64,000 nt of DNA from NCBI RefSeq assembly GCF_011420305.2, contig NZ_CP061769.1, positions 2,529,001-2,593,000 of the forward strand. Reading direction: 5' to 3'. Both the position numbers and the translations under genes were made by a program. The first letter of the stretch is position 1. Every line of letters starts with the position of its first letter. Origin of the DNA: Nocardioides ochotonae. Its GTDB lineage: Bacteria; Actinomycetota; Actinomycetes; Propionibacteriales; Nocardioidaceae. Below the pieces are notes generated by a model, which saw only the letters and a list, made by a program, of their open reading frames with translations, was not told where the DNA came from and ran no database searches. Positions 12,210 through 32,122 of the stretch are shown here, piece by piece.

Positions 12210-14735
12210 ATGGCTGTGCGCACGGAGTCACACGCTCCTGTGGCGTCCCCGCGTCTCGCCGTGGCCCGCCTCGACCTCACCGGCGTGCTCGTCGAGGCGA
12301 ACGACGACCTCTGCCGATTGGTCGGCAGCGCCCCCGAGCAGCTCGTCGGCCGCGCCCTGCACCGCATCGCCACGTTCTCGACGTACCGCGTCTGGGAGGA
12401 GCAGCTGGCCGCGGCACGCAACGGCGAGCGCACCGGCCAGCTCCGGGTCGACTGGTGCGGCGCCGAGAGCAGCATCCCGCTGGCGCTCACCTGGATCCTG
12501 GAGCAGGACGCGGAGCACCGGCCCACCTGGCTGACCGCGGTGCTGCATCCGATCGCCCCCGTCACAGGCACCACCACGGCCGCGGCCGAGCTCCCCGAGG
12601 CCGGCGCAGTCGCCGTCGAGCCCCGTGCCCCCCGCCGCGGCCTCGGCGCGCGGCGTCGACGCGTGCAACTGGACTTCTATGAGTCGATGTCGCGTCGCAG
12701 CAGCGACCTCGCCATCGTGCTCGACCCGCTCGGCCAGATCGTCTACGCCTCCCCGAGCGTGAGCGGGATGCTGGCCTACGACCTCATCGATGTCGTCGGG
12801 GCCGAGGCCTGGCGCTTCGTGCACCCCGAGGACCGGGCCGCCGCGGTCGCCGCGGTGCGGGCCGTCGACAGCGGCGGCGGCGCCCTGACCCGGTTCCGGA
12901 TCCGCCGGCGGGACGGCGCCTGGCGCTGGGTCGAGGGCGCGGTCAGCAACATGTTCGACACCGCCGTCGGCGGCATGGTCTTCAACCTGCGCGACGTCAC
13001 CGACCGGCTGCGTGCCGAGCGGGCGCTGAGCGCCTCCGACGCGCTGCACCGCGCGATCGCCGACCGCTCCACCGAGGGCATGTGGGTGGTGCACCCCGAC
13101 GGCCGCACGCTCTACGCCAACGACCGGCTCAGCGAGATCCTCGGCGTCGCCCCGGACGAGCTCGACCCGCCCCTGCTCGGTGGCCTCCTCGGTGAGGTGC
13201 CGATCCAGCTGCGCGCCGACAGCGCCGCGGGCGAGGAGGTCGCGCGGGTGCGCCACGAGACCACCTACCTGCACCCGAACGGCACCGAGCTGGTGCTCAC
13301 CATCGCGCTCACGACCATCGAGCACGCCGAGGTCGCGGACCGCCCGGCGTACCTCCTGCTGCTCGCCGACGTCACCCGGGCCCGCCGCCTCGAGGACGAG
13401 CTGCGCCGCTCGGCCCTGCGCGACCAGCTGACCGGGCTGCCCAACCAGGCGCTGCTCCTGGACCGTCTCGAGCTCGCGCTGACCCGCACCCGGGCCGGTA
13501 CGGCCGTGATCGCCCTGGACCTCGACGGGTTCCGCCACGTCAACGACGCCTGCGGTCACCGGGTCGGCGACGACCTCCTGGTCGCCGTCGCCGAGCGGCT
13601 GCAGGAGAACGTGCCGCAGACCGACACCGTCGCCCGCTTCGGTGCCGACACCTTCGTCATCGTCTGCGAGCCCGCCGACGAGGCGCGCGCCCTCGGGGTG
13701 GTCACCGCCCTGTCCGCCGCGATGCGGGCGCCGTTCCACATCCAGGGCCACGAGCTCCACGTGACCGCCTCCGCCGGCGTCGCGGTCTCCCCCGCCGAGT
13801 CTGCGCACCAGCTGCTGAGCAGCGCGAGCGCCGCGATGCACGCGGCCAAGGCCGCCGGCCGGGGCACGGTCCTCGTCTCCGACCCGCAGCTGTCGGACCG
13901 GGCGAAGGAGGCCTTCGAGCTGGGCTCGGACCTGTGGCGCGCCCTGTCCCAGGACAGCCTGCGCCTGCACTACCAGCCGGTCGTCGACCTGGGCACCGGC
14001 GCCGTCGTCGGCGTCGAGGCGCTGGCGCGCTGGGACCACCCCACCCTTGGCCCGATCGAGCCGAGCCGGTTCGTCGCGATCGCCGAGCGGACCGGGATGG
14101 CCCCCGAGCTCGACCGCTGGGCCGTGCGGACGGCGCTTCGCGACGTACGCCAGATGCGCGACCGGGGCGTGCTCGACCGTCGCGCGTACGTCGCGATCAA
14201 CCTCTCCGCCCGCAGCCTCAGCGCGCCCGGCATGGAGGCCTACATCGCCGCCACCGCCCGGACCCTGGGCATCTGCCCGGCCGGAATCGTGCTGGAGGTG
14301 ACCGAGGGCAGCGTCATGAGCGACCCCGAGGCCGCCCGCGCGATGCTCGGCCGGCTGCGCGAGCAGGGCTTCCAGATCGCGCTCGACGACTTCGGCACCG
14401 GGCACAGCTCCCTGGCCTACCTGCGCACCCTGCCGATCACGACGCTCAAGATCGACCGCAGCTTCGTCGCCGGTATCGCGGACAACCACCAGGACCTCGC
14501 GATCGCGAAGATGGTCGTCGAGCTCGCCCGGGCGGTGGGCCTCAGCGTGGTCGCCGAGGGTGTCGAGACCGTCGCACACGCGCGTCTGCTCACCGCGATG
14601 GGCTGCACCTCGGGTCAGGGCTGGCTGTGGAGCCGTGCCATCTCCCCGAAGGAGGCGCGGGTCAGCCGGGTGCTGGTGCGTGGGTACGCCGGCCTCCACC
14701 GCCCGCGCGCCGCTGCTGCCACGGCCACCGCCTGA
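12210..14735 (+). CDS. PAS-GGDEF-EAL protein, predicted c-di-GMP phosphodiesterase
   Basis: An 841-residue soluble protein with PAS-like domains (about 10-100, 165-280 and 285-400), a GGDEF domain (405-565) and an EAL domain (585-830). The cyclase signature is degenerate: GADTF at about residues 478-482 replaces GGDEF, so cyclase activity should be lost, although such domains can act as GTP-binding activators. The EAL domain keeps the catalytic set: VEALARW near 603, NLSARS, EVTEG, DDFGTGHSSLAYL, KIDRSF and AEGVET. I therefore predict hydrolysis of c-di-GMP under PAS-sensed control. The ATG follows a GGGGGGAGGG ribosome-binding site. It converges on a diguanylate cyclase gene next to the T4P operon. 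Confidence 0.92.
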   Translation: MAVRTESHAPVASPRLAVARLDLTGVLVEANDDLCRLVGSAPEQLVGRALHRIATFSTYRVWEEQLAAARNGERTGQLRVDWCGAESSIPLALTWILEQDAEHRPTWLTAVLHPIAPVTGTTTAAAELPEAGAVAVEPRAPRRGLGARRRRVQLDFYESMSRRSSDLAIVLDPLGQIVYASPSVSGMLAYDLIDVVGAEAWRFVHPEDRAAAVAAVRAVDSGGGALTRFRIRRRDGAWRWVEGAVSNMFDTAVGGMVFNLRDVTDRLRAERALSASDALHRAIADRSTEGMWVVHPDGRTLYANDRLSEILGVAPDELDPPLLGGLLGEVPIQLRADSAAGEEVARVRHETTYLHPNGTELVLTIALTTIEHAEVADRPAYLLLLADVTRARRLEDELRRSALRDQLTGLPNQALLLDRLELALTRTRAGTAVIALDLDGFRHVNDACGHRVGDDLLVAVAERLQENVPQTDTVARFGADTFVIVCEPADEARALGVVTALSAAMRAPFHIQGHELHVTASAGVAVSPAESAHQLLSSASAAMHAAKAAGRGTVLVSDPQLSDRAKEAFELGSDLWRALSQDSLRLHYQPVVDLGTGAVVGVEALARWDHPTLGPIEPSRFVAIAERTGMAPELDRWAVRTALRDVRQMRDRGVLDRRAYVAINLSARSLSAPGMEAYIAATARTLGICPAGIVLEVTEGSVMSDPEAARAMLGRLREQGFQIALDDFGTGHSSLAYLRTLPITTLKIDRSFVAGIADNHQDLAIAKMVVELARAVGLSVVAEGVETVAHARLLTAMGCTSGQGWLWSRAISPKEARVSRVLVRGYAGLHRPRAAAATATA

Positions 14736-14763
14736 CGCTGCCCCGGACGCGGGTGGGTGCCGG

Positions 14764-16074
14764 CTAGTCCCCGCCGGCCACGGTGAGCGGCCGCGAGCCG
14801 CCGTCCGGGTCCGCCAGCGAGGTGCCGCCGGGGCCGAGCACCTTGGCGTCGTACATCGCCTCGTCGGCGCGGCGCAGGAGGTCGCCGACCTCGTGGGGCG
14901 GCGCGAGCGCGACGCCGATGCTGGCACGGACCACCAGACGACCGCCGGCGTGCTCGATGGGCTCCTGGATCGCGCGGTGCAGCCGGGCCGCCACCTCGGC
15001 GAGCGCGGCCTCGCCGACCTGCTCGCAGATGATGGCGAACTCGTCGCCACCGAGCCGGCCGACGGTGTCGCTGGCCCGCACGGTCTCGCTCAGCCGGCGG
15101 CCGACCTCGACGAGCACGGCGTCGCCGGCGGCGTGCCCCAGGGTGTCGTTGACGGTCTTGAAGCCGTCGAGGTCGAGGAAGAGCACCCCGACCGTGCCGC
15201 TCGCGTGGCGGTGCACGCGCGCCGAGGCCATCTCCAGCCGGTCGTGGACCAGCTGGCGATTCGGCAGCCCGGTGAGCGCGTCGTGCAGCGCCAGGCGCCG
15301 CAGCTCGTCCTCGGCGCGGCGGGCCTCGGTCACGTCGGAGACCCGCAGCAGCCACCCGGTGTCGCCGCTGGCGCGCAGCGAGCTCCGGCTCGCGCTGAGC
15401 AGCCGGGTGGTGCCGTCCGGGTGCGGGTAGCTGCTCTGGCGCTGCACCGGCTCCTCGGCGCCGGCCTGCTCCTGCACGGGGACCGGTGGCAGACCGAGCA
15501 GCGCGTGCAGGTCCGTGTGCTCGAGCTCGGCGGTGTCGCGACCGAGCAGCTCGGTGAAGCGGGCGTTGGCGAGCACGACCGCGCCGTCCGGGCCGGTCAC
15601 CGCGATGCCCTCCCCCGCGGTCTCGACGATCGCCCGGTAGACGGTGGCGTCGGCGGGCTGGGCGTCCGCGACGGCGTGTGGCGCGGGATCGGCGGCGCGC
15701 CGGTCGCCGGAGTCGGCGCGCACCACGGCAGTCACACCGACGGCCTCGCCGCCGTTGCGCAGGGTGTCCAGGGAGACCGCCGCGCTGCCCAGTGCACCAT
15801 CGCGCAGCCGCCGGCGGGTGACGTACGTCGGGACCGCCTCGCCGCCCAGGGCGCGCGCGACCGGGGAGCAGGACGGCGAGCCGACCGGGCCGTCGGCGAT
15901 GTCGGGCAGCACCGTCGCCACCGGACGGCCGACCAGGTCGGCGGGGACCCAGCCGAGCACGGCCTGCGTCGCGGCGCTCGCGAAGACGATCTGCTGGTCG
16001 GTGTCCACGCAGAGGATGCAGTCGTCGGCCGCCAGGGAGACGCCGCTCAGCACGACGTGTGCGTCCAACACCAT
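14764..16074 (-). CDS. PAS-GGDEF diguanylate cyclase
   Basis: A 436-residue soluble protein: a PAS domain (about 8-110), a second PAS (about 150-260) and a C-terminal GGDEF domain with LHDALTGLPNRQLVHDR, FLDLDGFKTVNDTLGH and an intact RLGGDEFAII active site near residue 340. It should convert two GTP to c-di-GMP. The start is the ATG behind GGGAGG; a GTG eight codons upstream is an alternative. It lies 85 bases downstream of pilD on the same strand, so it may be read from the pilMNO operon, although a perfect 18-bp palindrome (16132-16149) sits in the gap. Together with the RsiG-like protein and WhiG-like sigma factor it is a plausible c-di-GMP source for pilus control. Confidence 0.92.
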   Translation of the reverse strand: MVLDAHVVLSGVSLAADDCILCVDTDQQIVFASAATQAVLGWVPADLVGRPVATVLPDIADGPVGSPSCSPVARALGGEAVPTYVTRRRLRDGALGSAAVSLDTLRNGGEAVGVTAVVRADSGDRRAADPAPHAVADAQPADATVYRAIVETAGEGIAVTGPDGAVVLANARFTELLGRDTAELEHTDLHALLGLPPVPVQEQAGAEEPVQRQSSYPHPDGTTRLLSASRSSLRASGDTGWLLRVSDVTEARRAEDELRRLALHDALTGLPNRQLVHDRLEMASARVHRHASGTVGVLFLDLDGFKTVNDTLGHAAGDAVLVEVGRRLSETVRASDTVGRLGGDEFAIICEQVGEAALAEVAARLHRAIQEPIEHAGGRLVVRASIGVALAPPHEVGDLLRRADEAMYDAKVLGPGGTSLADPDGGSRPLTVAGGD

Positions 16075-16131
16075 CGGACCTCCCGGCAGCGGCGCCACCG
16101 AGGCGCCGCGGTCAAGTGCCCGAGGCTAGTG

Positions 16132-16149
16132 CTCGACCGGCCGGTCGAG
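16132..16149. promoter_or_regulatory. Perfect 18-bp palindrome between pilD and the cyclase gene
   Basis: CTCGACCGGCCGGTCGAG is a complete palindrome without a loop, in the 85-base gap between pilD and the diguanylate cyclase. It could be an operator for the cyclase gene or act as a transcript hairpin. Function inferred only from position. Confidence 0.4.
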
Positions 16150-16159
16150 GGTGCGCGAC

Positions 16160-16963
16160 TCATGTGAGCCCCACCACGCCGAGGTAGCCCTCCCACAGCG
16201 ACGCCCCGGCGAACATGCCGAGCACCGCCCCGCTCAGGAGGAACGGCCCGTGCGGCACCCGCGCCCGTCGGCCGACCCGACCGGAGGCGATCAGGGCGAC
16301 GCCCACCAGCCCGCCGATGACGAAGCCGGCGCCCAGGCCGACCAGGCTCGGTCCCCAGCCCAGCCACCCGAGGAGCAGTCCGAGCACCGGCGCCAGCGCG
16401 ACGTCGCCCAGCCCCATGCCTCGGCCCGCGGTCCCCAGCCAGATCCCGCCGTACACCGCCAGCCAGACACCGGCCGAGGCCACGGCCGGCCACAGCACGT
16501 CGGGGCCGTTCAGTGCGGCGTCGAGGCCCAGGGCGGCCAGCGCCCCGCACGCGGCGACGCCGGTGATCGGGAACGGCAGCCGCTGGTGCTCGAGGTCGAT
16601 CAGGAAGTGTGCGACGCCGGCGGCGAGGACCACCACGGCACCGAGCGTGTACGCCGAGACGCCGAAGCGCCAGCCGGCGAGCACGAACACCAGGCCGGTG
16701 CTCAGCTCGACCAGCGGGTAGCGCACCGAGATCGGCTCCGCGCAGCCGCGACAGCGTCCGCGCAGCAGCAGCCAGGACACCACGGGCACGTTGTCCCGGG
16801 GCCGGACCGGGTCGCCGCAGGCAGGGCAGGCCGAGCCCGGCGAGGCGATGGAGAGCCCGAGCGGGACCCGGTGCACGACGACATTGAGGAAGGATCCGAT
16901 CAGCAGTCCGAGCACGCCGAGCAGCGCCAGGAAGGTGCCGCCCGGAAGACTGGCGGCGTTCAC
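16160..16963 (-). CDS. pilD: Prepilin peptidase (type IV leader peptidase)
   Basis: A 267-residue polytopic membrane aspartyl protease that cleaves the leader of type IV prepilins and N-methylates the new N-terminus. The N-terminal methyltransferase-like loop holds the four zinc-site cysteines C46-x2-C49 and C71-x2-C74. The catalytic aspartates are D123 in HFLIDLEHQRLP and D187 in the GLGD motif of GMGLGDVALAP. The length and eight or so membrane segments fit the full A24 family form. The GTG start overlaps the stop of the preceding gene (GTGA). It is the last clear pil gene of the leftward pilM-N-O operon. Its substrates should be the pilin at 32123 and the minor pilins at 28157-31904. Confidence 0.94.
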   Translation of the reverse strand: MNAASLPGGTFLALLGVLGLLIGSFLNVVVHRVPLGLSIASPGSACPACGDPVRPRDNVPVVSWLLLRGRCRGCAEPISVRYPLVELSTGLVFVLAGWRFGVSAYTLGAVVVLAAGVAHFLIDLEHQRLPFPITGVAACGALAALGLDAALNGPDVLWPAVASAGVWLAVYGGIWLGTAGRGMGLGDVALAPVLGLLLGWLGWGPSLVGLGAGFVIGGLVGVALIASGRVGRRARVPHGPFLLSGAVLGMFAGASLWEGYLGVVGLT

Positions 16964-17751
16964 GGCGACGGTGCGGATTCGAACGTCTGGAGCAGCACGC
17001 CCTGCTCGGCCGAGCCCAGCAGCGCGACCAGCTGCTCGCGCTGCTCGCGCACCGCCTGGGCCAGCATCTCGGCGCCCGTGATCGTCTCGGACGAACGGGG
17101 CACGAGGTCGCGGGCGAGGTCCCAGCGCAGCTGGACCGAGCCCAGGTCGTCCTCCCCCGCGAGCGACGCGGCGGCGACCAGGTAGGCCTCGAAGGTGGCG
17201 ACGTCGGCCTGCCGGGCCATCCGCGCCGCGGCCTCGTACTCGTGCTCCACGAGGAGCTCGCGGGCCACCGCCATGCAGTCGCCCGCCGCGCCGAGGAGCT
17301 CGACCACGAGCTGCTCGGCGGTGCGCTCCTCGAGCCGCTCCACCGCGTGCCCGTTGCGGCGCGCCTGCGAGGCCGGGAGGTCGATGAGGTGGTCGAGGCG
17401 CTGGAAGCCCTCGACGACCAGCTCGCGCACGGCGGCGTCGACGGTGCCGAGCAGCGCGTCCCGCGCGATCTGCACGATCTCGCGGGCGGTGACGTCGCCG
17501 CTCACCCGATCGGCGGCGGCCTCCATGGAGCGGGCCACGGCCGCACCCACGGCGGCGAGCTCGGCGTGCGGGTCGGAGGCCACCTGCAGGCCTTGGTCCC
17601 ACAGCACCTCCTCGAGCCCGTGGATCTCCACGGCCCAGGTGGTCAGCACGGCCGCCCACACCTCGCCACGGCGCGCGTAGCGCTGGGCGAGGTCGTCGAG
17701 ACGCTGACGCACGGGCGGCTGCTGGATGCTGGTGTGCTGGATCGCGGTCAT
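16960..17751 (-). CDS. Unknown protein of the T4P operon
   Basis: A 263-residue soluble, mainly helical protein without recognisable family motifs. It starts MTAIQHTSIQQPPVRQRLDDLAQRY and contains long amphipathic Ala/Glu/Arg-rich helices such as AEQLVVELLGAAGDCMAVARELLVEHEYEAAARMARQ. Both ends overlap neighbours by 4 bases, so it is translated as part of the pilM-to-pilD operon. A cytoplasmic structural or regulatory role in pilus assembly is a guess from context. Confidence 0.8.
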   Translation of the reverse strand: MTAIQHTSIQQPPVRQRLDDLAQRYARRGEVWAAVLTTWAVEIHGLEEVLWDQGLQVASDPHAELAAVGAAVARSMEAAADRVSGDVTAREIVQIARDALLGTVDAAVRELVVEGFQRLDHLIDLPASQARRNGHAVERLEERTAEQLVVELLGAAGDCMAVARELLVEHEYEAAARMARQADVATFEAYLVAAASLAGEDDLGSVQLRWDLARDLVPRSSETITGAEMLAQAVREQREQLVALLGSAEQGVLLQTFESAPSP

Positions 17752-18716
17752 GACCGGCTCCTCCCCTGGCTGTGGCTGGCGTCGCGGCGCGACCAGCGGG
17801 TGCTGCGGCGTGCGCCGCCCACCGGGACCGCGCCGACCGGTGCGATCCCCGGCACGGGAGCGACGGGCGCGATCTGCTCCGTGCCGTCGTCGTCGTGCCC
17901 GAGTGCGTCGACCTCGTCGTACGCCGCGGCCGGCGGCGGCTCGGGGACGGTCCGGGTGGCGGGCGCGGTGTCCTCCACCGGGGCCTCCGGGGCTGCCGGC
18001 TCGGCCGGGGCTGCGGAAGCGGCCGGGGCCGAGGCAGCGGGCGGGGCAGGTGGCGTCGAGAGCTCAGCGGGTCGCGGATGGGCGGGTGCCGCCAGCGCCG
18101 TACCGGCCGGGACGGTGGGCAGCACCGGGCGGGCCACGGTCTCGGTGGACTCCAGGCGCTCCACCGCGGCGACCACCCGGGCCATGGTGCGCGCCGGGGC
18201 CTCGTCGGGGGCGGTGCGACCGGCCAGCCCGCGAAGCGTCGCGGTGACCTGGCGCCGGTAGCGCGCGGCGTCCGCAGGCGTCGCCGCCTCCGGGCGGGCC
18301 GTACGGCGACCGGCCAGGTGCAGCGAGGGGCCGGCGGTCACGCTGACCTGCTCGGGCTCCTCGCCGGGTGCCGGGGCCGAGCTCAGCCGCTCCAGCGTCT
18401 GCTCGAGGGTGTGCACCTGGGCCCGCAGCCACCGCACCTCGACCTGGCCGTCGGGGTCCGCGTCGGTCCCCACCTCACCTCGGGCGTCGTGGACGGTGCC
18501 GACCAGCGGGTCGCCGGTGGAGCCGGCCTGCTCGACGTGGTCGAGGTGGCCGACCTCCCAGGTGTCCGCCCCGGCCGACGGCGACTGGGCCGCTGCCTCG
18601 CCCTCGACGGCGTCAGGCTCCGCCGCCGCGCGCCGCCGGCGCATCACGACCACCACCGACAGCAGCACGAGCACGGCGACAAGGCCGGCGACGGGCATCA
18701 GGTAGTCGGGTTGCAT
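17748..18716 (-). CDS. Unknown single-span membrane protein of the T4P operon
   Basis: A 322-residue protein with one N-terminal membrane helix (YLMPVAGLVAVLVLLSVVVVM, residues 5-25) followed by an RRRR stop-transfer. That predicts a short outside N-terminus and a large cytoplasmic tail. The tail has a predicted helix (DGQVEVRWLRAQVHTLEQTLERL), an alpha-helical middle (ARYRRQVTATLRGLAGR) and a Pro/Ala/Glu-rich low-complexity C-terminus ending in a basic stretch. It follows pilO by 69 bases and overlaps the next gene by 4. It sits where many T4P loci carry pilP, but has no lipobox and no PilP similarity I can see. Function unknown. Confidence 0.8.
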   Translation of the reverse strand: MQPDYLMPVAGLVAVLVLLSVVVVMRRRRAAAEPDAVEGEAAAQSPSAGADTWEVGHLDHVEQAGSTGDPLVGTVHDARGEVGTDADPDGQVEVRWLRAQVHTLEQTLERLSSAPAPGEEPEQVSVTAGPSLHLAGRRTARPEAATPADAARYRRQVTATLRGLAGRTAPDEAPARTMARVVAAVERLESTETVARPVLPTVPAGTALAAPAHPRPAELSTPPAPPAASAPAASAAPAEPAAPEAPVEDTAPATRTVPEPPPAAAYDEVDALGHDDDGTEQIAPVAPVPGIAPVGAVPVGGARRSTRWSRRDASHSQGRSRS

Positions 18717-18785: not shown

Positions 18786-19388
18786 TCAGGGCTTCGGGAC
18801 GGGCCGCATGACGAACATGCTGCCGACCACGGTCGTGGTGTAGTCGCCCTCGGTGCCGGTGAGGTCGACGGCGGTCACCAGGTAGGCGCGGTCCATGTCC
18901 TCGAGGTTCTCGAGGAGCCGGATGGTCTGGCCGTAGTCGCCCTGGACGCTGACGCTGACCTCCTGGCGGGCAAGCTGGTCGTTCGAGGGCACCGGGCTCG
19001 CGCTGGTGGCGCCGGTCGCCTGCTCGGCACCGCCGAGGGTGGGTGCGCTCGGGGACAGCGCGGTCACGCCCTCCGCACCGATCCCGGCGGCCACCGCGGC
19101 CTCGGTGATCTCGGCGAAGAGGCCCGGCTGGTCGGCGGTGGGCGGGAACTCCTTGGCCAGCTTCTTGGCGACCTTCTTGACCGGGCGGAGGTCCGCCTTC
19201 TGGCGCTGGAGGTTGGCCAGCTGGGCGGCCAGGGCCGCGTTCTGCTCGCGCACGATCTCGACCTGCTCGTTGGCCTCGGCCACCGCGTCGGTGCGGGGCC
19301 CCAGGACCAGCAGCCAGCCGAGCGCGGCGACGACCAGCAGCGCGAGGGCGCCCGCGATCTTCGTACCGGTGGCACTCTTCAGGTTCAC
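18786..19388 (-). CDS. pilO: Type IV pilus inner-membrane platform protein PilO
   Basis: A 200-residue bitopic protein: short cytoplasmic N-terminus, one membrane helix (IAGALALLVVAALGWLLVLGP, about 10-30), a coiled coil (AEANEQVEIVREQNAALAAQLANLQRQ) and a ferredoxin-like extracytoplasmic domain ending in VVGSMFVMRPV. This is the standard PilO plan and length. It pairs with PilN and links PilM to the pilus machine. The start overlaps the pilN stop by 4 bases. In this Gram-positive lineage there is no PilQ secretin, so the alignment complex probably ends at the membrane and wall. Confidence 0.9.
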   Translation of the reverse strand: MNLKSATGTKIAGALALLVVAALGWLLVLGPRTDAVAEANEQVEIVREQNAALAAQLANLQRQKADLRPVKKVAKKLAKEFPPTADQPGLFAEITEAAVAAGIGAEGVTALSPSAPTLGGAEQATGATSASPVPSNDQLARQEVSVSVQGDYGQTIRLLENLEDMDRAYLVTAVDLTGTEGDYTTTVVGSMFVMRPVPKP

Positions 19389-20143
19389 TTGTCCGCCTTC
19401 TCGTCGAAGAGCTCGTCCGCCAGGTCGACGTACTGCCCGCTGAAGACCTTCTCGGAGAGCCCGACCGAGCCGCTGAAGGCGACCCCGGTCGAGTCGGCCG
19501 ACGTGGTGGTCGTGATGAACGGCTCGACGAAGAGACCGTTCTCACCGAGCGCGATCACGAGCTCGCCGACGGCGGCCCGGCTGGCCGCGGTGCCGGCGAT
19601 CGACACGCAGCCCACGACCAGGCGCAGGTTGAACGGGTCCGGCCCGGGGCACGGCGACGCGACGGCCGCGGCCACGGCGTCCTCCGCGACCTCGCCCCCG
19701 TCCGCCGCCTGGACCGCCTTGAGCGCCCCAGCCAGGTCGGCGAGGGCGACGGTGAGGGTGTCGACCTTGGCGCTCTCGGGCAGTGCGTCCTGGAGTCCGG
19801 TGAAGACGCTGGAGAACCAGATCTCCCCCATCATCGTCGCCTGCAGGGCAGCGACCTGGGCGCGCACGCCACTGACGTAGGTCTGCACCGGCATCAGCTC
19901 GTTGACCTCGCCGGTGAGCTTGGCGGTCTGCACGGACTCGCGGTCCACGAGCCCCTCGGCGTCGAGCACGCGCTTGTGCTGGAAGCCGGTGAGGGCGACC
20001 AGGAGCACCAGAAGGGCGACGCCGGCGAGCACGAACTGGCGGCGCAGCTGGCGCACCGCGATCAGCTCGAACGCCGCGGGCGAGAGCAGGTTGACCGTGG
20101 GCAGCGACGGGGCGGGGTGCCCGGCCGGGCGACGCCGGCTCAT
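19385..20143 (-). CDS. pilN: Type IV pilus inner-membrane protein PilN
   Basis: A 252-residue bitopic protein. The short cytoplasmic N-terminus contains LPTVNLLSP, matching the conserved INLLP-type segment by which PilN docks into PilM. A membrane helix (FVLAGVALLVLLVALTGF) and a coiled coil plus periplasmic-type domain follow. It is somewhat longer than the roughly 180-200 residues usual for PilN because of an Ala/Gly-rich insert around 150-190. It overlaps pilM upstream and pilO downstream by 4 bases, so all three are coupled. Confidence 0.9.
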   Translation of the reverse strand: MSRRRPAGHPAPSLPTVNLLSPAAFELIAVRQLRRQFVLAGVALLVLLVALTGFQHKRVLDAEGLVDRESVQTAKLTGEVNELMPVQTYVSGVRAQVAALQATMMGEIWFSSVFTGLQDALPESAKVDTLTVALADLAGALKAVQAADGGEVAEDAVAAAVASPCPGPDPFNLRLVVGCVSIAGTAASRAAVGELVIALGENGLFVEPFITTTTSADSTGVAFSGSVGLSEKVFSGQYVDLADELFDEKADK

Positions 20144-21240
20144 CGGGCGCCCACGCAGAGGCCGGTCGGCACCGTGAGGGCGCCGGACTGGTCGGGGGCG
20201 AGGTCGGCGGCGCCGACCCGCAGGTGGCCACGCACGTCCAGCGGCGCGGTGTCGAGCCCCAGCCGCAGGCTCAGCAGCTGGTCGAGGCCGCTCAGGCGGG
20301 AGCCCGCACCGGCGAGGAGCACTCGCGCGATGCCGACGGACTCGGCACCGCCCAGCGGGTCCGCCGTCGAGCTGCGATAGAAGTCCAAGGTGGTCTCGAT
20401 CTCGGCGACGAGCGCCTCGGTGGCCTCGACGATCGTGCCGAGCGCCGGGTGCGACTCCGCGGGGACGAGCGGGTCGGTGGAGGTGGCCGGCGTGCCCACG
20501 AGCCCGAGCGCGACCTTGGTGCGCTCGGCGTCCTCCCAGGTCCAGTCGTAGCGCTGCTGCACCGCGCGGGTGATCGAGTCGCCGCCGAGCCCGGAGATGA
20601 TCCGCACGAACCGCGGGACCCCGCCGGCGTGCACCACCACGGAGGTGATGTCGGCGCCGATGTCGACGATCGCCTCGACGTCCCCGGCGGGCGCGAGCCC
20701 ACCCGGCGTACGCGCCCGGACGAGCGCGAACGGCATCAGGTCGACGGCGTCGACGTGCAGCTTGGCGCCGTGCACCGCAAGCACGAAGGAGTCCACCATC
20801 TCCCGCGTGGCCGCCACGAGGAGCACCCGCGCCTTGCGCTGGAGCACCCCCTGGGCGTCGGGGACCTCGGGCTCGCCAAGCAGGTAGTAGTCGAGGTTGG
20901 CGTCCTCGACCGGGAAGGGCAGGACGTCCTGGACCTGGTAGCGCAGCGCCTTGCCGAAGTCCTCCGGCGGCATCCACTCCAAGTCCATCTGACGCACCAG
21001 CACGCCGGCGTTCGCGATGCCGAGGGTGACGCGGCGGTGCCCGAACTTGCCCACCGCCCACAGCTCGCGCAGCGCCTCGGACAGCCGGGTCGGGTCGACC
21101 ACCGTCCCGGCGCGGACCACGCCGCTGGGAAGGGGGACCTCGGCGAAGCGCTTGAGGGCGAACGAGCGTCGCTTCGGCACCAGCTCGGCTGCCCGGACAC
21201 CGGACGTGCCGATGTCGAGGCCGATCAGCGTGGATGACAT
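20140..21240 (-). CDS. pilM: Type IV pilus actin-like ATPase PilM
   Basis: A 366-residue cytoplasmic FtsA/actin-fold protein. The phosphate-1 loop is LIGLDIGTSGVRAAEL at the N-terminus, the phosphate-2-like segment is AIVDIGADITSVVVHAGG, and the conserved PilM stretch ALRYQVQDVLPFPVEDANLDYYLLG lies near residue 95. The last part has LLAGAGSRLSGLDQLL, the adenosine motif. PilM recruits PilN and connects assembly ATPases to the platform. The ATG at 21240 lies about 40 bases after the -10 element of a WhiG/FliA-type promoter (21280-21307), making this the first gene of the leftward pilM-N-O-x-y-pilD operon. Confidence 0.94.
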   Translation of the reverse strand: MSSTLIGLDIGTSGVRAAELVPKRRSFALKRFAEVPLPSGVVRAGTVVDPTRLSEALRELWAVGKFGHRRVTLGIANAGVLVRQMDLEWMPPEDFGKALRYQVQDVLPFPVEDANLDYYLLGEPEVPDAQGVLQRKARVLLVAATREMVDSFVLAVHGAKLHVDAVDLMPFALVRARTPGGLAPAGDVEAIVDIGADITSVVVHAGGVPRFVRIISGLGGDSITRAVQQRYDWTWEDAERTKVALGLVGTPATSTDPLVPAESHPALGTIVEATEALVAEIETTLDFYRSSTADPLGGAESVGIARVLLAGAGSRLSGLDQLLSLRLGLDTAPLDVRGHLRVGAADLAPDQSGALTVPTGLCVGAR

Positions 21241-21279: not shown

Positions 21280-21307
21280 TGATCGGCGACTCCGGACGAC
21301 GACTTGA
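21280..21307 (-). promoter_or_regulatory. Predicted WhiG/FliA-type promoter of the pilM operon
   Basis: On the minus strand: TCAAG (21303-21307), exactly 15 bases, then GCCGATCA (21280-21287). This matches the WhiG/FliA consensus (TAAAG-like -35, GCCGATAA -10). It is back-to-back with the pilT promoter at 21348-21375 and 40 bases from the pilM start. Confidence 0.75.
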
Positions 21308-21347: not shown

Positions 21348-21375
21348 TCAAGTGCGACGTGCGAGATGCCGAAGA
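21348..21375 (+). promoter_or_regulatory. Predicted WhiG/FliA-type promoter of pilT-rsiG-pilB
   Basis: TCAAG (21348-21352), 15 bases, GCCGAAGA (21368-21375). Same element and spacing as four other T4P start regions here. It would give a 5' leader of roughly 110 bases before the TTG start of pilT. Confidence 0.75.
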
Positions 21376-21490
21376 CCCGGATAAGAAGACCCAGATGTCG
21401 GCGGCCCAGCCGCCTGCACCATCGTTCTCCCGGGATCTGGCTCGGGCCGCCCCACCACTTCCCCCCGCTCCGCCACAAGGAGGCCCCGCC

Positions 21491-22594
21491 TTGAGTCCAC
21501 AGATCACGCCGTACCTGCGTGCCGTCGTCCACAACGGCGGGTCCGACCTGCACCTCAAGGCCTCGGTCCCCCCGCGGATCCGGATCACCGGCTCGCTGGT
21601 CTCGCTGCAGGTGGACGCGCTCGCCCCCGACGCCGTGGCAGAGATGGTGCGGGAGACCATGAGCGACGACGTCGCCGCGCACTTCGACGCGACCAACGAG
21701 GCCGACTACGCGCTCGTGGTCGAGGGGGTCGGGCGGTTCCGGGTCAACGCCTTCCGCGCTCGCGGCGAGGTGGGTGCCGTGCTGCGTCTCGTCGGTGACG
21801 ACCCGACCCCGCTGCACGAGCTCGGCATGCCCGACGTCGTACGCCGTCTGGCGCTGGAGTCGCGCGGACTGGTGCTGGTCACGGGGCCGACCGGGTCGGG
21901 CAAGTCGACCACGCTGGCCGGCATGGTGGACGCGGTGAACGAGAGCCGCGCCGTGCACGTGCTGACCCTCGAGGACCCGATCGAGATCGTGCACCGCGAC
22001 AAGCTCGCCAGCGTGACCCAGCGCGAGGTCGGCACCGACACCGGCGACTGGTCCACCGCCATGCGCGCCGCGATGCGCCAGGACCCCGACGTCATCCTCG
22101 TGGGCGAGATGCGCGACGCCGAGACCGTCCGCAGTGCGCTCGCGGCCGCCGAGACCGGTCACCTGGTGCTCTCCACGCTGCACACCAAGGACGCCAAGGA
22201 GACCGTCGGGCGCATCATCGAGTTCTTCCCCGCCCACGAGCACCAGCAGATCCGCCATGCGCTGTCGTCCTCGCTGCGCGGCATCGTCTGCCAGCGCCTG
22301 GTCCCGCGGATCGACGGCGGCAGCCGCACCGCGGTGATGGAGATCGCCGTCAACACCCCGCGGTTGGCCGAGGCGATCGCCGAGCCGGACCGCACCGCGC
22401 TGATCCCCGAGATCGTCGCCGACGGCGCCTACTCCGGCATGCAGACCTTCGACCAGCACCTGGTCGCCCTCGTCCAGCAGGGCGAGGTGTCCGTCGAGGT
22501 CGCGATGGCCTGCAGCAGCCGCCCGCACGACTTCTCGGTGATGCTCAAGAGGGCCGGCGGCGACGTCGCGGTCCGAGACGCGCGGGTGTCGTGA
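21491..22594 (+). CDS. pilT: Type IV pilus retraction-type ATPase PilT (first copy)
   Basis: A 367-residue hexameric GspE/PilT ATPase. The N-terminal PAS-like domain begins PQITPYLRAVVHNGGSDLHLKAS, typical PilT. Walker A is GPTGSGKST, the Asp box LTLEDPIEIVH, Walker B DPDVILVGEMRD, the His box TGHLVLSTLHTKDA. The start is probably the TTG at 21491 with AAGGAGG 7 bases before it; the frame is open to 21359 but that part covers the promoter. It should power pilus disassembly. Its stop overlaps the RsiG-like gene start (TGATG), so a pilus motor and an anti-sigma factor are translationally coupled. Confidence 0.92.
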   Translation: MSPQITPYLRAVVHNGGSDLHLKASVPPRIRITGSLVSLQVDALAPDAVAEMVRETMSDDVAAHFDATNEADYALVVEGVGRFRVNAFRARGEVGAVLRLVGDDPTPLHELGMPDVVRRLALESRGLVLVTGPTGSGKSTTLAGMVDAVNESRAVHVLTLEDPIEIVHRDKLASVTQREVGTDTGDWSTAMRAAMRQDPDVILVGEMRDAETVRSALAAAETGHLVLSTLHTKDAKETVGRIIEFFPAHEHQQIRHALSSSLRGIVCQRLVPRIDGGSRTAVMEIAVNTPRLAEAIAEPDRTALIPEIVADGAYSGMQTFDQHLVALVQQGEVSVEVAMACSSRPHDFSVMLKRAGGDVAVRDARVS

Positions 22595-23127
22595 TGACGG
22601 CCGCGCGCGCCTCCCGCAAGGCCGGCCCGGTGCGCCGGACCAGCCTGGCCCCCGCCGAGCCGTCCCCCCACCTCAGCGAGCTCGACCTGGTGGCCCTGCG
22701 GTCCTACCGGCTGCGGCTCGAGGCGGAGGAGGAGCGGGTCTCCTACTGGCGCCGCCTCGTGCACGCGCGCACCGACGTGCTCCAGGCCCAGTCGACGGCG
22801 GGCTTCACGCTCAGCGTCGCCGCGCTCGCCCGGGCTCTCGGGGACACCGCCACCGGGCGCACCCGACGGGTGTTGCTCAGCGTGAAGCCGGCGGACCCGC
22901 TGCCCGAGCTGCCGGAGCTGGCCGAGATGTGGGTGACCCGCGTCGACACCGACGACCCCGAGGCGGTCACCGACGCGCTCCAGCGCCTCGCCGAGGCCGA
23001 GCACCAGCTCACGGCGTACCGACGGGCGCTGCACGAGCGCATCGACGAGGCGACCGGCGAGCTGATCCTGCGCTACCGCGAGGACCCGCGGGCAGCGCTC
23101 ACCCTGATCCCCCAGGAGAGTCCATGA
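22594..23127 (+). CDS. rsiG: RsiG-like c-di-GMP-responsive anti-sigma factor
   Basis: A 177-residue soluble helical protein. Helix 1 (VSYWRRLVHARTDVL) carries E46-x3-S50-x2-R53-x3-H57-x3-D61. Helix 2 near the C-terminus carries E136-x3-T140-x2-R143-x3-H147-x3-D151. These match, with the same spacing, the E-x3-S-x2-R-x3-Q-x3-D signature with which Streptomyces RsiG binds c-di-GMP; here His replaces Gln in both copies and Thr replaces Ser in the second. The flanks ELDLVALRSYRLRLEAEEE and ELILRYREDP also look RsiG-like. In Streptomyces, RsiG loaded with c-di-GMP sequesters the sigma factor WhiG. Here it sits between pilT and pilB, overlapping both, 11 kb from a WhiG-family sigma gene. I infer a c-di-GMP-gated anti-sigma factor for pilus genes. 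The GTG one codon upstream is an alternative start. Confidence 0.82.
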   Translation: MTAARASRKAGPVRRTSLAPAEPSPHLSELDLVALRSYRLRLEAEEERVSYWRRLVHARTDVLQAQSTAGFTLSVAALARALGDTATGRTRRVLLSVKPADPLPELPELAEMWVTRVDTDDPEAVTDALQRLAEAEHQLTAYRRALHERIDEATGELILRYREDPRAALTLIPQESP

Positions 23128-24821
23128 ACGCCCCCGCTCCCACGGTCGGCGAGATCTCGCGGATCCTGCTCGACCACGGCCTGATCGACGAGGACCAGCT
23201 GCGGGTCGCCACCGACGTGGCCCGGGAGGGGTCGCGCTCGGTGGTCGAGGTGCTCCTCGAGCAGGGCACCGTGGACCGCGTCGCCGTGCTGCGCACGACG
23301 GCGGCCGCGGCCGGGCTGGCCTACGTCGACCTCACCGACTTCCAGGTCGACGCCTCGGCGGCCTCGCTGCTGCCCGCGGACTACGCCCACCGGGCGGCGG
23401 TGCTGCCGCTGAGCCGTGACGGCGGCGAGCTGCTGGTGGCGGTGTCGGTGCGCCAGGCCGGCAACATCGAGCTCAAGGACGACCTGACCCGGATCACCCG
23501 CCAGCGGATCCGGTTCGCGATCGCCAACCGGGCCGACATCATCACCAAGATCGGCCAGATCTACCGCGCCGAAGGCGAGCTGCAGGACCTGACCTCCGAC
23601 CTCACGGTCGATGAGGACAGCGGCGGCGACGCGCTCGCGGACCTGACCGAGGTCTCCGACGAGGCGCCGGTGGTGCGCTTCGTCAACCTGCTCATCGAGC
23701 AGGCCATCACCGACCGCGCCTCCGACATCCACATCGAGCCCGGCGAGCACGAGCTGCGCGTCCGCTACCGCATCGACGGCGTGCTCGTCGACGCGCACCG
23801 CTCCCCCAAGAACATCCAGAACGGCGTGATCTCCCGGCTCAAGATCATGGCGGAGATGAACATCGCCGAGCGGCGGGTGCCGCAGGACGGCCGGATGTCG
23901 ATCACCCACCGCGGCCGCCGCATCGACCTGCGTGTCGCCGCGCTGCCGACGGTGTGGGGCGAGAAGGTCGTGGCCCGAATCCTCGACAACTCCAACACCC
24001 GGCTCGGGCTCGAGGACCTGGGCTTCAGCGCCGACAACTTCGCGCGCTTCCGCAGCTCCTTCACCAAGCCCTACGGGATGATCCTGGCCACCGGCCCCAC
24101 CGGCTCGGGCAAGTCGACGACCCTCTACGCCACCCTGAACCAGCTGAACCGGCCCGAGGTCAACGTGATCACCGTCGAGGACCCGGTGGAGTACCGGCTC
24201 CCCGGCATCAACCAGGTGCAGGTCAACCAGAAGGCCGGCCTCACCTTCGCCGCGGCGCTGCGCAGCATCCTGCGCTCCGACCCCGACATCGTGCTGATCG
24301 GTGAGATCCGCGACCACGAGACCGCCCAGATCGCGGTGGAGTCCGCGCTCACCGGCCACCTCGTGCTGTCCACGCTGCACACCAACGACGCGCCCTCCGC
24401 GGTCACCCGGCTGGTCGAGATGGGCATAGAGCCGTTCCTCGTCGGCTCGGCGATGGACGCGGTGCTGGCCCAGCGGCTGTGCCGCACGCTGTGCGGCCAC
24501 TGCGCGGAGGAGTACGTGCCCGAGCGGGCCGAGCTCGAGCGGATCGGCTTCCCGCTCCCCGCGGACGGGTCCCTGCCGGTGCTGCACCGCCCGGTCGGAT
24601 GCTCGCGCTGCGCGCGCACCGGTTACCGCGGCCGGATGGCGCTGCACGAGGTGATGACGGTGGGCGAGGAGATCGCCCGGCTGGCGGTCACCCGCGCCTC
24701 CACCGACGAGATCGCGCGGGCGGCGTACGCCGACGGCATGGTGGGCCTCAAGCAGGACGGGTGGGCCAAGGTCGCCGCGGGCAAGACCTCGATCGAGGAG
24801 GTCCTGCGGGTCGTGGCCTAG
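23124..24821 (+). CDS. pilB: Type IV pilus assembly ATPase PilB
   Basis: A 565-residue pilus extension ATPase. An N-terminal MshEN/T2SSE_N domain (1-150, starting GEISRILLDHGLIDEDQLRVA) precedes the catalytic GspE core. Walker A is GPTGSGKST near residue 325, the Asp box VITVEDPVEYRLP, Walker B DPDIVLIGEIRD and the His box TGHLVLSTLHTNDA. A tetracysteine zinc site CRTLCGHC...CSRCARTGYRGR distinguishes PilB from PilT. MshEN domains bind c-di-GMP in some bacteria, but the motif is imperfect here, so binding is possible rather than established. The ATG overlaps the stop of the RsiG-like gene (ATGA), completing the pilT-rsiG-pilB operon. Confidence 0.94.
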   Translation: MNAPAPTVGEISRILLDHGLIDEDQLRVATDVAREGSRSVVEVLLEQGTVDRVAVLRTTAAAAGLAYVDLTDFQVDASAASLLPADYAHRAAVLPLSRDGGELLVAVSVRQAGNIELKDDLTRITRQRIRFAIANRADIITKIGQIYRAEGELQDLTSDLTVDEDSGGDALADLTEVSDEAPVVRFVNLLIEQAITDRASDIHIEPGEHELRVRYRIDGVLVDAHRSPKNIQNGVISRLKIMAEMNIAERRVPQDGRMSITHRGRRIDLRVAALPTVWGEKVVARILDNSNTRLGLEDLGFSADNFARFRSSFTKPYGMILATGPTGSGKSTTLYATLNQLNRPEVNVITVEDPVEYRLPGINQVQVNQKAGLTFAAALRSILRSDPDIVLIGEIRDHETAQIAVESALTGHLVLSTLHTNDAPSAVTRLVEMGIEPFLVGSAMDAVLAQRLCRTLCGHCAEEYVPERAELERIGFPLPADGSLPVLHRPVGCSRCARTGYRGRMALHEVMTVGEEIARLAVTRASTDEIARAAYADGMVGLKQDGWAKVAAGKTSIEEVLRVVA

Positions 24822-24843: not shown

Positions 24844-24871
24844 TCAAGTGGGGTGGTCGGGGTGCCGAAGA
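24844..24871 (+). promoter_or_regulatory. Predicted WhiG/FliA-type promoter of pilT2-pilC
   Basis: TCAAG (24844-24848), 15 bases, GCCGAAGA (24864-24871), identical in both boxes to the promoter before pilT at 21348. It lies in the 90-base gap after pilB and about 40 bases before the GTG start of the second pilT-like gene. Confidence 0.75.
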
Positions 24872-24911: not shown

Positions 24912-26390
24912 GTGTCCGACCTGATCCGGAGCCGTTTCGGCCTCCCGACGACCACGCCGCGCACCGACGCGCCGCGGACCGACGAGGCGCGCCCCGACGT
25001 GCCCCGCCTGGACGCGCCGCCGGCGCCGAGGCCCGCGCCGACCCACGCCGCGGTCCCGCCCGCGCCGACCCACGCCGCGGTCCCGCCCGCGCCGCTCGAC
25101 CTGCCGATGGCACCGCCGCCGCTTCCCCTCGACGTACCGATCGCGGCGCCGCTGGGTGTCGCCACCCTGGCTCCCCCGCCGGCCGTGCCGGCACCGACCA
25201 TCACGATGCCGACCCTCCTGGAGCCGGCGGCCTCGCGTCCGGCGGCTGCCGCGCCCGCACCGCGCGCGCCCGAGCCGGAGCCTCCGGCGGAGTCCGCGCC
25301 GCTGGCCCTCGACGACCTCCTCCTCGGGCTGGTCGACTCGGGTGGCTCCGACCTGCACCTGACCCGCGGCGCGCCGCCGATGATCCGCCTGCGCGGTGAC
25401 ATGCGGCCGCTGGAGGGCTACGAGCCGCTGGAGGCCAAGCAGCTTCAGGACCTGATGTACGGCGTGATGACCGAGCGCCAGCGCAAGGAGTTCGAGGAGG
25501 AGCTCGAGCTCGACTTCGCCTACGCCGTCCCCGGGCAGGCGCGCTTCCGTGTCAACGTGTTCCAGCAGCGCGAGGCCGTGGGCGCCGTGATGCGCCTGAT
25601 CCCGTGGGAGATCAAGCCGCTCGAGGACCTCGGCATGCCGCCGGTCATCAACAGCTTCACCGAGCTCAAGCGCGGCCTGGTGCTGGTCACCGGCGCGACC
25701 GGCTCCGGCAAGTCGACCACGCTGGCGGCGATGATCGACCGGATCAACCGGACCCGCAGCGGACACATCGTCACCATCGAGGACCCGATCGAGTTCCTCC
25801 ACGAGCACCGCCGCTGCCTGGTGAACCAGCGCGAGGTCGGCGAGGACACCCATGGGTTCCAGGCCGCCCTCAAGCACGTGCTGCGCCAGGACCCCGACGT
25901 GATCCTGGTCGGCGAGCTGCGTGACCTCGAGACGATCTCGGTCGCGCTGACCGCCGCCGAGACCGGTCACCTGGTCTTCGCGACCCTGCACACCCAGTCG
26001 GCGCAGGACACGATCTCCCGCGTGGTCGACGTCTTCCCGGCCGGGCAGCAGCAGCAGATCCGCACCCAGCTGGCCGCGACCCTGCAGGCCGTGGTCTGCC
26101 AGAACCTGGTCAAGACCTCCGACGGCAAGGGCCGCGCCGCCGCCGTCGAGGTGATGGTCTGCAACCCCGGCATCCGCGCGATGATCCGCGACGACAAGCT
26201 CAACCAGATCCAGGGCTCCCTCCAGGCCGGCGCCAAGGACGGGATGCAGACGCTGAACTCGCACCTCGCGGCGCTGGTGAAGGCCGGGCGGATCACCTTC
26301 GAGGCCGGCCTCGAGGCCTGCTCGGACCGTCACGACTTCGAGACCCTGGCGCGGTCGGCGAGCGTGCGCCCGACCCCCGCCTGGTCCTGA
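24912..26390 (+). CDS. PilT-family ATPase with proline-rich N-terminal extension (second copy)
   Basis: A 492-residue PilT/PilU-like ATPase. Residues 1-135 are a Pro/Ala-rich linker with a duplicated nonapeptide APTHAAVPP, unlike PilT at 21491. The catalytic core starts at LDDLLLGLVDSGGSDLHLTRG and has Walker A GATGSGKST, Asp box VTIEDPIEFLHEH, Walker B DPDVILVGELRD, His box TGHLVFATLHTQSA and the PilT-type GIRAMIRDDK segment. GTG start with GGAGG directly upstream. It precedes pilC by 65 bases and has its own WhiG-type promoter. Two PilT homologues with different N-termini suggest distinct roles (PilT versus PilU-like accessory motor); which one retracts cannot be decided here. Confidence 0.9.
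   Translation: MSDLIRSRFGLPTTTPRTDAPRTDEARPDVPRLDAPPAPRPAPTHAAVPPAPTHAAVPPAPLDLPMAPPPLPLDVPIAAPLGVATLAPPPAVPAPTITMPTLLEPAASRPAAAAPAPRAPEPEPPAESAPLALDDLLLGLVDSGGSDLHLTRGAPPMIRLRGDMRPLEGYEPLEAKQLQDLMYGVMTERQRKEFEEELELDFAYAVPGQARFRVNVFQQREAVGAVMRLIPWEIKPLEDLGMPPVINSFTELKRGLVLVTGATGSGKSTTLAAMIDRINRTRSGHIVTIEDPIEFLHEHRRCLVNQREVGEDTHGFQAALKHVLRQDPDVILVGELRDLETISVALTAAETGHLVFATLHTQSAQDTISRVVDVFPAGQQQQIRTQLAATLQAVVCQNLVKTSDGKGRAAAVEVMVCNPGIRAMIRDDKLNQIQGSLQAGAKDGMQTLNSHLAALVKAGRITFEAGLEACSDRHDFETLARSASVRPTPAWS
25034..25094 (+). repeat. 27-bp tandem repeat in the PilT-like linker
   Basis: Two identical 27-bp units (25034-25060, 25061-25087) and a 7-base partial copy encode the nonapeptide APTHAAVPP twice. 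Replication slippage could change linker length without breaking the frame. Confidence 0.85.
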
Positions 26391-29869: not shown

Positions 29870-30594
29870 CAGTTGTCCACCAGGACGTTGATCTCGGCAT
29901 TGGGCAGGCGCACCCGCTTGAACACGGTCGCCGGCTTGTAACGGGTGTTGCCGCGCACGGTCTGCACCTTCAGCGCGATCTCCACGCTGGACACCAGCGG
30001 CAGCTCGACGTCACCCAGGCTCGCCAGGGTGATCAGAGTGCCGCCGGAGTCGTAGTAGAAGAACGTGTCCACCGCCGGCCAGGCCAGGCCCCGGGCCAGC
30101 ACCCGCTTCTGCACAGAACAGGTCGGCAGAGTCGCGTCGCAGTAGCTGTAGGACTGGGTGGCGGTGTTGATGATCGGACGCTGGATCCGCTGCACGAGCT
30201 GTCCCGAGGTCTGCGCGGCATGCGTGTCGCGCTCGAGCTCGAGGGTCACCAGCAGTGGCGCGGAGCCGACGGTGTTGAGGTTGGCGTAGAACTGCACCCG
30301 GGTGCGCGTGGCCGCCTTGAGCGCGGTGTCCGCACAGGTGGGGCAGGCCAGCTCCGTGGCCTGCTCCGGCAGCACTGCGGTGCGCAGCACCTTGCTGACC
30401 GCGTCGACCGAGACCTGGCTCTGGGTGGCGTTGTCCAGCCTGTTCTCCAGCGCCGCGGTGGTACGGATGACCAGCACCGCGGTGGTCCCGAGACCGGTCA
30501 TCAGGATGGTGAAGATCGCCATCGCGACCAGAAGCTCGGCGAGGGTCATGCCCCGGTCACCGAAGGCGCCCGGCGAGCATCGCCGGCGGGTCAT
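29869..30594 (-). CDS. Minor pilin, PilW/PilV-like
   Basis: A 241-residue prepilin. The leader MTRRRCSPGAFGDRG is followed by the cleavage-site context G-MTLAELLVAMAIFTILMTGLG, with the conserved Glu at position 5 of the mature protein. Prepilin peptidase (16160-16963) should process it. The body is a single globular domain with two CxxC-like pairs (ELACPTCAD, YCDATLPTCSV). Four-base overlaps with both neighbours put it in the middle of the three-gene minor pilin operon. Confidence 0.85.
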   Translation of the reverse strand: MTRRRCSPGAFGDRGMTLAELLVAMAIFTILMTGLGTTAVLVIRTTAALENRLDNATQSQVSVDAVSKVLRTAVLPEQATELACPTCADTALKAATRTRVQFYANLNTVGSAPLLVTLELERDTHAAQTSGQLVQRIQRPIINTATQSYSYCDATLPTCSVQKRVLARGLAWPAVDTFFYYDSGGTLITLASLGDVELPLVSSVEIALKVQTVRGNTRYKPATVFKRVRLPNAEINVLVDN

Positions 30595-31941: not shown

Positions 31942-31969
31942 AGATCGGCTGCCGGACGTCCTCACTTGA
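31942..31969 (-). promoter_or_regulatory. Predicted WhiG/FliA-type promoter of the minor pilin operon
   Basis: Minus strand: TCAAG (31965-31969), 15 bases, GCCGATCT (31942-31949). Divergent from the pilin promoter at 32017, mirroring the divergent pair at 21280/21348. Confidence 0.75.
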
Positions 31970-32044: not shown

Positions 32045-32122
32045 CTCCCTTCGACAAGAGCACCTGACCCCGGGGAGGGGCGCAGGGCACACAGCACCAC
32101 ACCTTCCGCAAAGGGGAATCAC

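Follow-up and report, generated by a model that had tools for sequence, protein, structure and literature searches.

Why should a single pair of enzymes for making and breaking cyclic di-GMP (c-di-GMP) lie at the end of a type IV pilus (T4P) operon, and through which receptor might it act? The window analysed here, a stretch of 64,000 nucleotides (nt) from Nocardioides ochotonae (contig NZ_CP061769.1, positions 2,529,001 to 2,593,000), carries genes for a putative phosphodiesterase (PDE) and a putative diguanylate cyclase (DGC) next to pilD, the gene of the prepilin peptidase. An earlier sequence-only reading had placed synthesis, breakdown and sensing of c-di-GMP at this one T4P locus; our analysis supports that view, with the anti-sigma factor RsiG, and not the MshEN domain of PilB, as the predicted sensor. 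From the sequence data we consider it probable that the two enzymes form one half of a self-contained c-di-GMP circuit, which would control the T4P through RsiG and the sigma factor WhiG.

A phosphodiesterase and a cyclase converge beside pilD

The PDE gene (12210..14735, forward strand) and the DGC gene (14764..16074, reverse strand) are convergent, tail to tail, with their stop codons 28 nt apart. Such a convergent pair had been described in the sequence-only reading, and Pfam confirms both open reading frames (ORFs) and their domains. The PDE (protein 12210-14732) consists of PAS repeats, a GGDEF domain (E-value 7e-36) and an EAL domain (PF00563, E-value 7e-73), the DGC (protein 14767-16074) of PAS repeats and a GGDEF domain (E-value 8e-45); the PAS regions number two in each protein, where only one had been noted. 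The cyclase site of the PDE is RFGADTF, in which the second G and the E of GGDEF are gone. In its EAL domain the EAL, N, E, DDFG, K, E and QG residues are present, as judged by alignments to the solved structures 5m3c and 4rnh, and the catalytic and metal-binding set (EAL, N, E, DD, K, E) predicts an active phosphodiesterase. The DGC reads RASDTVGRLGGDEF, that is, GGDEF with an RxxD product-inhibition site (I-site) five residues upstream. Alignment shows the GGDEF signature together with the metal and substrate residues DxD...FK, and on these signature residues the protein is predicted to be an active diguanylate cyclase. The intact GGDEF reported earlier is borne out both by this alignment and by the relatives: in all nine genomes with the same gene arrangement (type A, see below) the pilD-adjacent cyclase retains both GGDEF and RxxD. 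GGDEF profile matches on two antisense frames (G000 14833+ and G117 10785+) were dropped.

The source genome is complete (a single contig of 4.26 Mb), and the two GGDEF domains and one EAL domain detected in it all belong to this pair. HD-GYP domains were not found in the genome by a search that gave matches in 4 of 14 control genomes. Since these are the sole GGDEF and EAL domains found genome-wide, and adjacency to pilD recurs in 9 of the 19 genomes that combine T4P with RsiG, the source genome among them, the placement of the pair goes beyond chance.

RsiG, not PilB, is the predicted receptor

The rsiG gene (22591..23127, forward) lies in the middle of a pilT1-rsiG-pilB run and overlaps the stop codon of pilT1. 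The RsiG-like protein of the sequence-only reading proves to be real: PF22802 matches it in two stretches (E-value 4e-16), and it aligns over its full length with the solved RsiG of Streptomyces venezuelae (6pfj, E-value 5e-7). The c-di-GMP motif of RsiG is E(X)3S(X)2R(X)3[Q/H](X)3D; a strict E-S-R-Q-D search missed the protein, which was found once S/T and Q/H were allowed. Its two motifs are EERVSYWRRLVHARTD and EHQLTAYRRALHERID, the first matching exactly, with H as its Q/H residue, the second carrying T instead of S and H instead of Q. In a structure model with a mean predicted local distance difference test (pLDDT) score of 79 the motifs are borne by two long helices (33-70 and 123-164), and the best Foldseek match of the model is the S. 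venezuelae RsiG-WhiG complex (6pfv), at an E-value of only 1.8e-3. Profile and motifs identify a twin-motif RsiG anti-sigma factor, for which binding of c-di-GMP and of WhiG is predicted; the presence of two motifs in one chain separates it from the single-motif, homodimeric RsiG of the Rubrobacter type. With its motifs intact, RsiG is the obvious candidate for the c-di-GMP receptor.

The product of whiG (33589..34332, forward) scores 232.2 with the FliA_WhiG model TIGR02479 (cut-off 189.6). Its best match is the WhiG-named model PRK06288, but this lies below the model's own cut-off (277.8 vs 343). Among the matches listed it is the single sigma factor of this genome in the WhiG/FliA score range.

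PilB (23124..24821, forward), proposed earlier as a possible MshEN-type sensor, does have the MshEN domain (PF05157). The published receptor motif comprises two copies of RLGxx(L/V/I)(L/V/I)xxG...LxxxLxxQ (PMC5013675); in PilB the R, G and Q are replaced in both, so that the domain probably binds no c-di-GMP. The relatives aligned also lack these residues in PilB, and the NCBIfam model for MshE-type c-di-GMP binding scores 19.7 on PilB against a cut-off of 38. PilB was rejected as the receptor on these grounds.

WhiG-like sites precede the pilus operons

When the T4P loci were scanned for the canonical consensus of flagellar promoters, TAAA-N14..16-GCCGATAA, at no more than 2 mismatches, 32 matches were obtained over all loci, and 6 and 7 in controls generated by a first-order Markov model. 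The scan revealed a TCAAGT form, from which a 28-mer consensus with 14 scored positions, TCAAGT-N14-GCCGATGA, was built; a site was called when at least 12 of the 14 positions agreed. The motif is similar to the flagellar/WhiG consensus applied to Rubrobacter in PMC8325347. At the present locus four sites are found, each 20-41 nt ahead of a pil operon: TCAAGT-N14-GCCGATCA (21280..21307, reverse; 13/14) 40 nt before pilM, TCAAGT-N14-GCCGAAGA (21348..21375, forward; 13/14) 20 nt before the pilT1-rsiG-pilB run, a third (24844..24871, forward; 13/14) 41 nt before pilT2-pilC, and a fourth (31942..31969, reverse; 12/14) 38 nt before the minor-pilin genes. Their position directly upstream of T4P operons is that of the sigma28-like promoters of Rubrobacter, and we regard them as candidate promoters.

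The 14-position consensus gives 55 matches in the T4P loci, compared with counts of 0, 0 and 4 for three Markov-shuffled sets; it was derived from the same loci, for which permuted motifs are the fairer control, yet an element of selection remains. With 200 permuted motifs the mean is 0.00-0.03 per gene class, and the count exceeds 1 in one class only (PilC, 5/22). Of 24 loci, 20 have a site upstream of pilM (for permuted motifs the mean is 0.01 and the maximum 1); upstream of the pilD-adjacent DGC it is found in 6 of 11, with a seventh, G092, by position; upstream of the PDE there is none (0/7). These counts leave out G122 and G087, which have a distant T4P set, as well as G029 and G165. Genome-wide, the pattern with up to 2 mismatches matches 31 times, the backward pattern 8 times. 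The 30 matches given with their locus comprise the 4 pil sites and 26 sites elsewhere, 22 of these inside called ORFs and four (L158, L164, L166 and L177) not, as assigned by a rough ORF caller that placed two of the four pil sites within an over-long upstream extension of pilM.

The distance of 85 nt between pilD and the DGC given by the sequence-only reading is exact (16075..16159, between the pilD stop at 16160 and the DGC start at 16074). Several relatives carry a WhiG-like site inside this gap. A hairpin in the gap has a z of -1.38, with 19 of 200 shuffles folding equally well, and was not counted as a terminator.

The locus is conserved among Nocardioides with RsiG

The sample comprised 147 Nocardioides genomes, evenly drawn from a larger group, of which 21 have RsiG, 22 PilM, 87 GGDEF and 87 EAL; the relatives found by RsiG include N. 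ungokensis, N. litoris, N. mangrovi, N. rubriscoriae and N. bruguierae. A WhiG-type sigma factor, defined as a TIGR02479 score of 212 or more (the next group begins at 202, and the cut was set after the gap had been seen), is present in 21/21 RsiG genomes vs 1/126 of the others (Fisher 1.5e-24), and PilM in 19/21 vs 3/126 (Fisher 8e-19). Presence of GGDEF/EAL is only moderately associated with RsiG (20/21 vs 67/126, p = 2e-4), since the domains also serve Nocardioides that have no T4P.

Two architectures recur among the 19 genomes that have RsiG as well as PilM. Nine, the source genome included, have the convergent PDE/DGC pair beside pilD (type A). In eight others (type B) the pil strand carries GGDEF-EAL and EAL genes, of which one adjoins pilO (rsiG in two rearranged genomes). 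The architecture of G125 was not judged, its contig being 4.9 kb long. All GGDEF and EAL genes are confined to the locus in 14 of the 21 RsiG genomes, a count that takes in G117 (one copy 0.6 kb outside the stretch examined), G068 (locus on two scaffolds) and G200 (pair on the pilD contig, rsiG on another contig). The synteny of the pair with the pil genes, rsiG and whiG, which the sequence-only reading had named as a possible support, is conserved. That reading had also held that a separate cyclase promoter combined with loss of synteny would speak against the link to the pilus; such a promoter does occur in some relatives, where it belongs to the same class as the pilus promoters, and loss of synteny was not found.

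Some variants may be recorded here. Two or three tandem PDE/cyclase pairs stand beside pilD in G173 and G117 (L120-L123), which points to a local duplication of sensor inputs. In type B loci (e.g. L124, L144, L146) the GGDEF-EAL proteins keep GGDEF and lack the R of RxxD, unlike the type A cyclases. In N. mangrovi (L207, L208) the whole pil-rsiG-whiG locus is found on two scaffolds with the same layout, either a true duplication or an effect of assembly.

A proposed circuit and its alternatives

From the layout of the locus and the published biochemistry of RsiG and WhiG we infer a negative feedback. At low c-di-GMP, free WhiG would transcribe pilMNOxyD, pilT1-rsiG-pilB, pilT2-pilC and the minor pilins from the TCAAGT-type sites, and its products would include RsiG, its own anti-sigma factor. 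WhiG would also yield the DGC, in this species by read-through from pilD and in several relatives from a WhiG-type promoter of its own. The DGC would raise c-di-GMP up to a bound set by its RxxD site; two c-di-GMP would then arm the twin-motif RsiG, which would capture WhiG and turn the pilus genes off. The PDE, transcribed outside the WhiG regulon, would lower c-di-GMP and reopen the loop according to its PAS inputs. Its two PAS domains would make it the natural reset input, and two PAS domains are present in the cyclase as well. The activities of both enzymes, the read-through and, for this species, the sign of the feedback are predicted parts of the scheme, built on gene identities, motifs, synteny, co-occurrence and promoter-like sites that are observed.

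Three other accounts of the pair were weighed against this circuit. The adjacency to pilD in type A loci and the MshEN domain of PilB would both suit a pair that acts on pili directly, after their assembly, through PilB or another pilus receptor, with RsiG-WhiG as a separate system; the binding residues are missing from both MshEN copies here and in the relatives aligned, the MshE model stays below its cut-off, and an RsiG with intact motifs offers the obvious receptor, all of which makes direct action quite unlikely. Still less probable is a local pair serving some other output, such as a cell-surface or stress response, whose linkage to the pil genes would be accidental. It is true that GGDEF is found in 87 of the 147 genomes and is common without T4P, which gives c-di-GMP other uses in the genus, and that the PDE has no WhiG-like promoter. 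Yet proximity to the pilus genes recurs in two architectures (type A in 9/19, type B in 8/19), the cyclase is immediately preceded by a WhiG-like site in 6/11, and G029, which has T4P without RsiG, has lost both enzymes.

Somewhat less remote, although unlikely, is that the PAS-GGDEF-EAL protein is bifunctional or tuned by GTP, so that both proteins would synthesise c-di-GMP. Several orthologous PDEs (G173, G117, G199, G157, G070, G092 and G200) do retain GGDEF; the inactive GADTF, noted earlier for this genome, is specific to it. Against synthesis by the present protein stands its own GADTF site, and AGDQF, AGDEF, ADDEF and GGDQF in relatives speak for repeated decay of the cyclase site.

Genomes in which part of the set is gone bear on the proposed RsiG-WhiG circuit, and the coordinated loss in two of them counts for it. 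G029 has a full pil gene set, and no RsiG, WhiG-type sigma factor, GGDEF or EAL was found in it. G153 has RsiG beside WhiG (L138/L139), with no GGDEF, EAL or PilM found; its RsiG has the sole broken first motif among the 21 (EERVCYWRRLLEGRVD; S to C, H to E) and may have turned c-di-GMP-independent. G165 (L219-L221), the one genome without RsiG that has a WhiG-type sigma factor, retains whiG and one EAL gene, a 30-residue PilB fragment (90% identity) and a pilin remnant, without pilM, rsiG or a GGDEF cyclase, and is apparently a decayed relic of the locus. G122 and G087, which have PilM without RsiG, carry a different, more distant T4P set.

Several observations weigh against the circuit. G029 keeps a remnant site (11/14) before pilM without WhiG, which may serve its FliA-like sigma factors, and FliA-like sigma factors of similar specificity are frequent in Nocardioides. 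The site on the pilT1 side is present in only 2 of 25 loci, which lends little support to a control of rsiG itself by WhiG. In this genome the gap between pilD and the DGC lacks a WhiG-like site, and co-transcription of the cyclase by read-through from pilD is presumed. The second RsiG motif is altered in 6 of the 21 genomes: its E is lost in G153, and in five others H is changed to F (three) or E is changed (two). As it is altered in these five besides G153, the second motif is evidently less strict than the first. In the locus of G080 there are no GGDEF or EAL genes within 20 kb, and some or all of these genes lie elsewhere in 5 of the 21 (G101, G123, G133, G189 and G080). Finally, a further receptor was sought with the BldD-like profile PF21179, which gave no match here but none in any control genome either; PilZ was not searched for.

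Relation to known systems

The closest precedent is Rubrobacter radiotolerans, for which PMC8325347 describes as established both the binding of RsiG, c-di-GMP and WhiG, in an (RsiG)2-(c-di-GMP)2-WhiG complex, and WhiG-dependent T4P promoters; control of pili by RsiG-WhiG is thus already known. The present locus shares with it a WhiG-type sigma factor, sigma28-like promoters before T4P operons, a c-di-GMP-dependent anti-sigma factor (binding being predicted here from sequence) and DGC/PDE genes that are linked to the T4P cluster and partly stand behind WhiG promoters. Feedback loops are also proposed there (PMC8325347). Unlike the single-motif, dimerising RsiG of Rubrobacter, the protein here has two motifs and its gene lies within pilT-rsiG-pilB; five promoters precede DGC/PDE genes in Rubrobacter, whereas one cyclase and one PDE are found genome-wide here, both at the locus, and the -35 element is TCAAGT, not TAAA (PMC8325347). 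Twin-motif RsiG is represented by the S. venezuelae RsiG-WhiG complex (6pfj, 6pfv), the best match by sequence and by fold and monomeric there; it controls sporulation, whereas here rsiG lies in a pilus locus. According to PMC8325347 the role of twin-motif RsiG is shown only in Streptomyces sporulation and pilus control only for single-motif RsiG, and RsiG-WhiG is described there as the one sigma/anti-sigma pair known to be a target of c-di-GMP. The zoospore T4P of Actinoplanes missouriensis, with FliA/WhiG-like sigma factors, are a further case of sigma28-family control of T4P in an actinomycete, although Actinoplanes species lack RsiG according to that paper (PMC8325347). Vibrio cholerae MshE resembles PilB in its MshEN-type domain and differs in having the binding residues that are missing here (PMC5013675).

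Single-pair c-di-GMP systems exist elsewhere. In the open PubMed Central literature, which does not cover subscription papers or preprints, we found no paper linking RsiG to Nocardioides pili. As far as that literature reaches, what appears to be new is a twin-motif RsiG in a pilus locus together with a detected c-di-GMP turnover confined to it. A genome whose detected c-di-GMP turnover comes down to a single cyclase and a single PDE, both at their target's locus, would offer a clean, paralogue-free system for the study of feedback, sensor input and output. More tentatively, and with somewhat more doubt than belief, c-di-GMP could here be a private signal of one locus, and cyclase, PDE, twin-motif RsiG, WhiG and T4P a portable cassette gained and lost as a unit; by making both its anti-sigma factor and the arming enzyme, WhiG might produce a self-limiting pulse of pili, and pilus control might be ancestral for twin-motif RsiG, with Streptomyces sporulation a later co-option.

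RsiG beyond Nocardioides

RsiG is found in 129 of 394 genomes of the class. Its surroundings were inspected in 20 regions of 19 genomes, hand-chosen across families with Streptomyces-like ones left out. In all five genomes of a second family (f14) the order pilM / pilT1-rsiG-pilB is kept, WhiG is nearby in all four whose stretch extends that far, and the pilM-pilT1 gap has a similar TCAAG-type or TAAA-type site, mostly below the cut-off; there is no GGDEF or EAL match within the stretches examined. Our guess is that f14 is the Geodermatophilaceae, a family with RsiG in 16/16 genomes according to PMC8325347. An Aeromicrobium genome also has pilT1-rsiG-pilB and a site before pilM. With twin-motif RsiG in pilus loci of Nocardioides, of this Aeromicrobium genome and of f14 (5/5), the ancestral function of the switch becomes testable. 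In the other 15 regions no pil genes adjoin rsiG (one weak PilT1 match); one, from the family of the source genome, combines RsiG with WhiG and an EAL gene, and GGDEF or EAL matches occur in three more. Region L267 gave no RsiG match by tblastn.

Other genes of the pilus locus

On the reverse strand pilD (16160..16981; PF06750, PF01478) is preceded by gene y (16960..17751), gene x (17748..18716; an ORF with a hydrophobic N-terminus), pilO (18786..19388; PF04350), a pilN-like ORF (19385..20140, start approximate) and pilM (20140..21240; PF11104). Genes y and x, between pilO and pilD, have no Pfam or NCBIfam match over the cut-off. Gene y is conserved in the other type A loci at 39-49% identity, and most type B loci have a GGDEF-EAL gene in that interval. 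On the forward strand the gene of the pilT-like ATPase PilT1 (21395..22594) is followed, beyond rsiG and pilB, by pilT2, also encoding an ATPase (24912..26390), and pilC (26456..27676). Minor-pilin-type genes (PilV-, PilW- and PilX-like, named by eye) occupy 28157..31904 on the reverse strand, and a pilA-type major pilin gene lies at 32117..32539, forward, its start set by eye from the prepilin motif.

Further along the window two closely similar ORFs, HNH/DUF222-like by eye, face in opposite directions (35018-36316, reverse, and 38756-40066, forward). An acetate-kinase-like gene lies between them and a phosphoketolase-like gene (40155-42776) adjoins.

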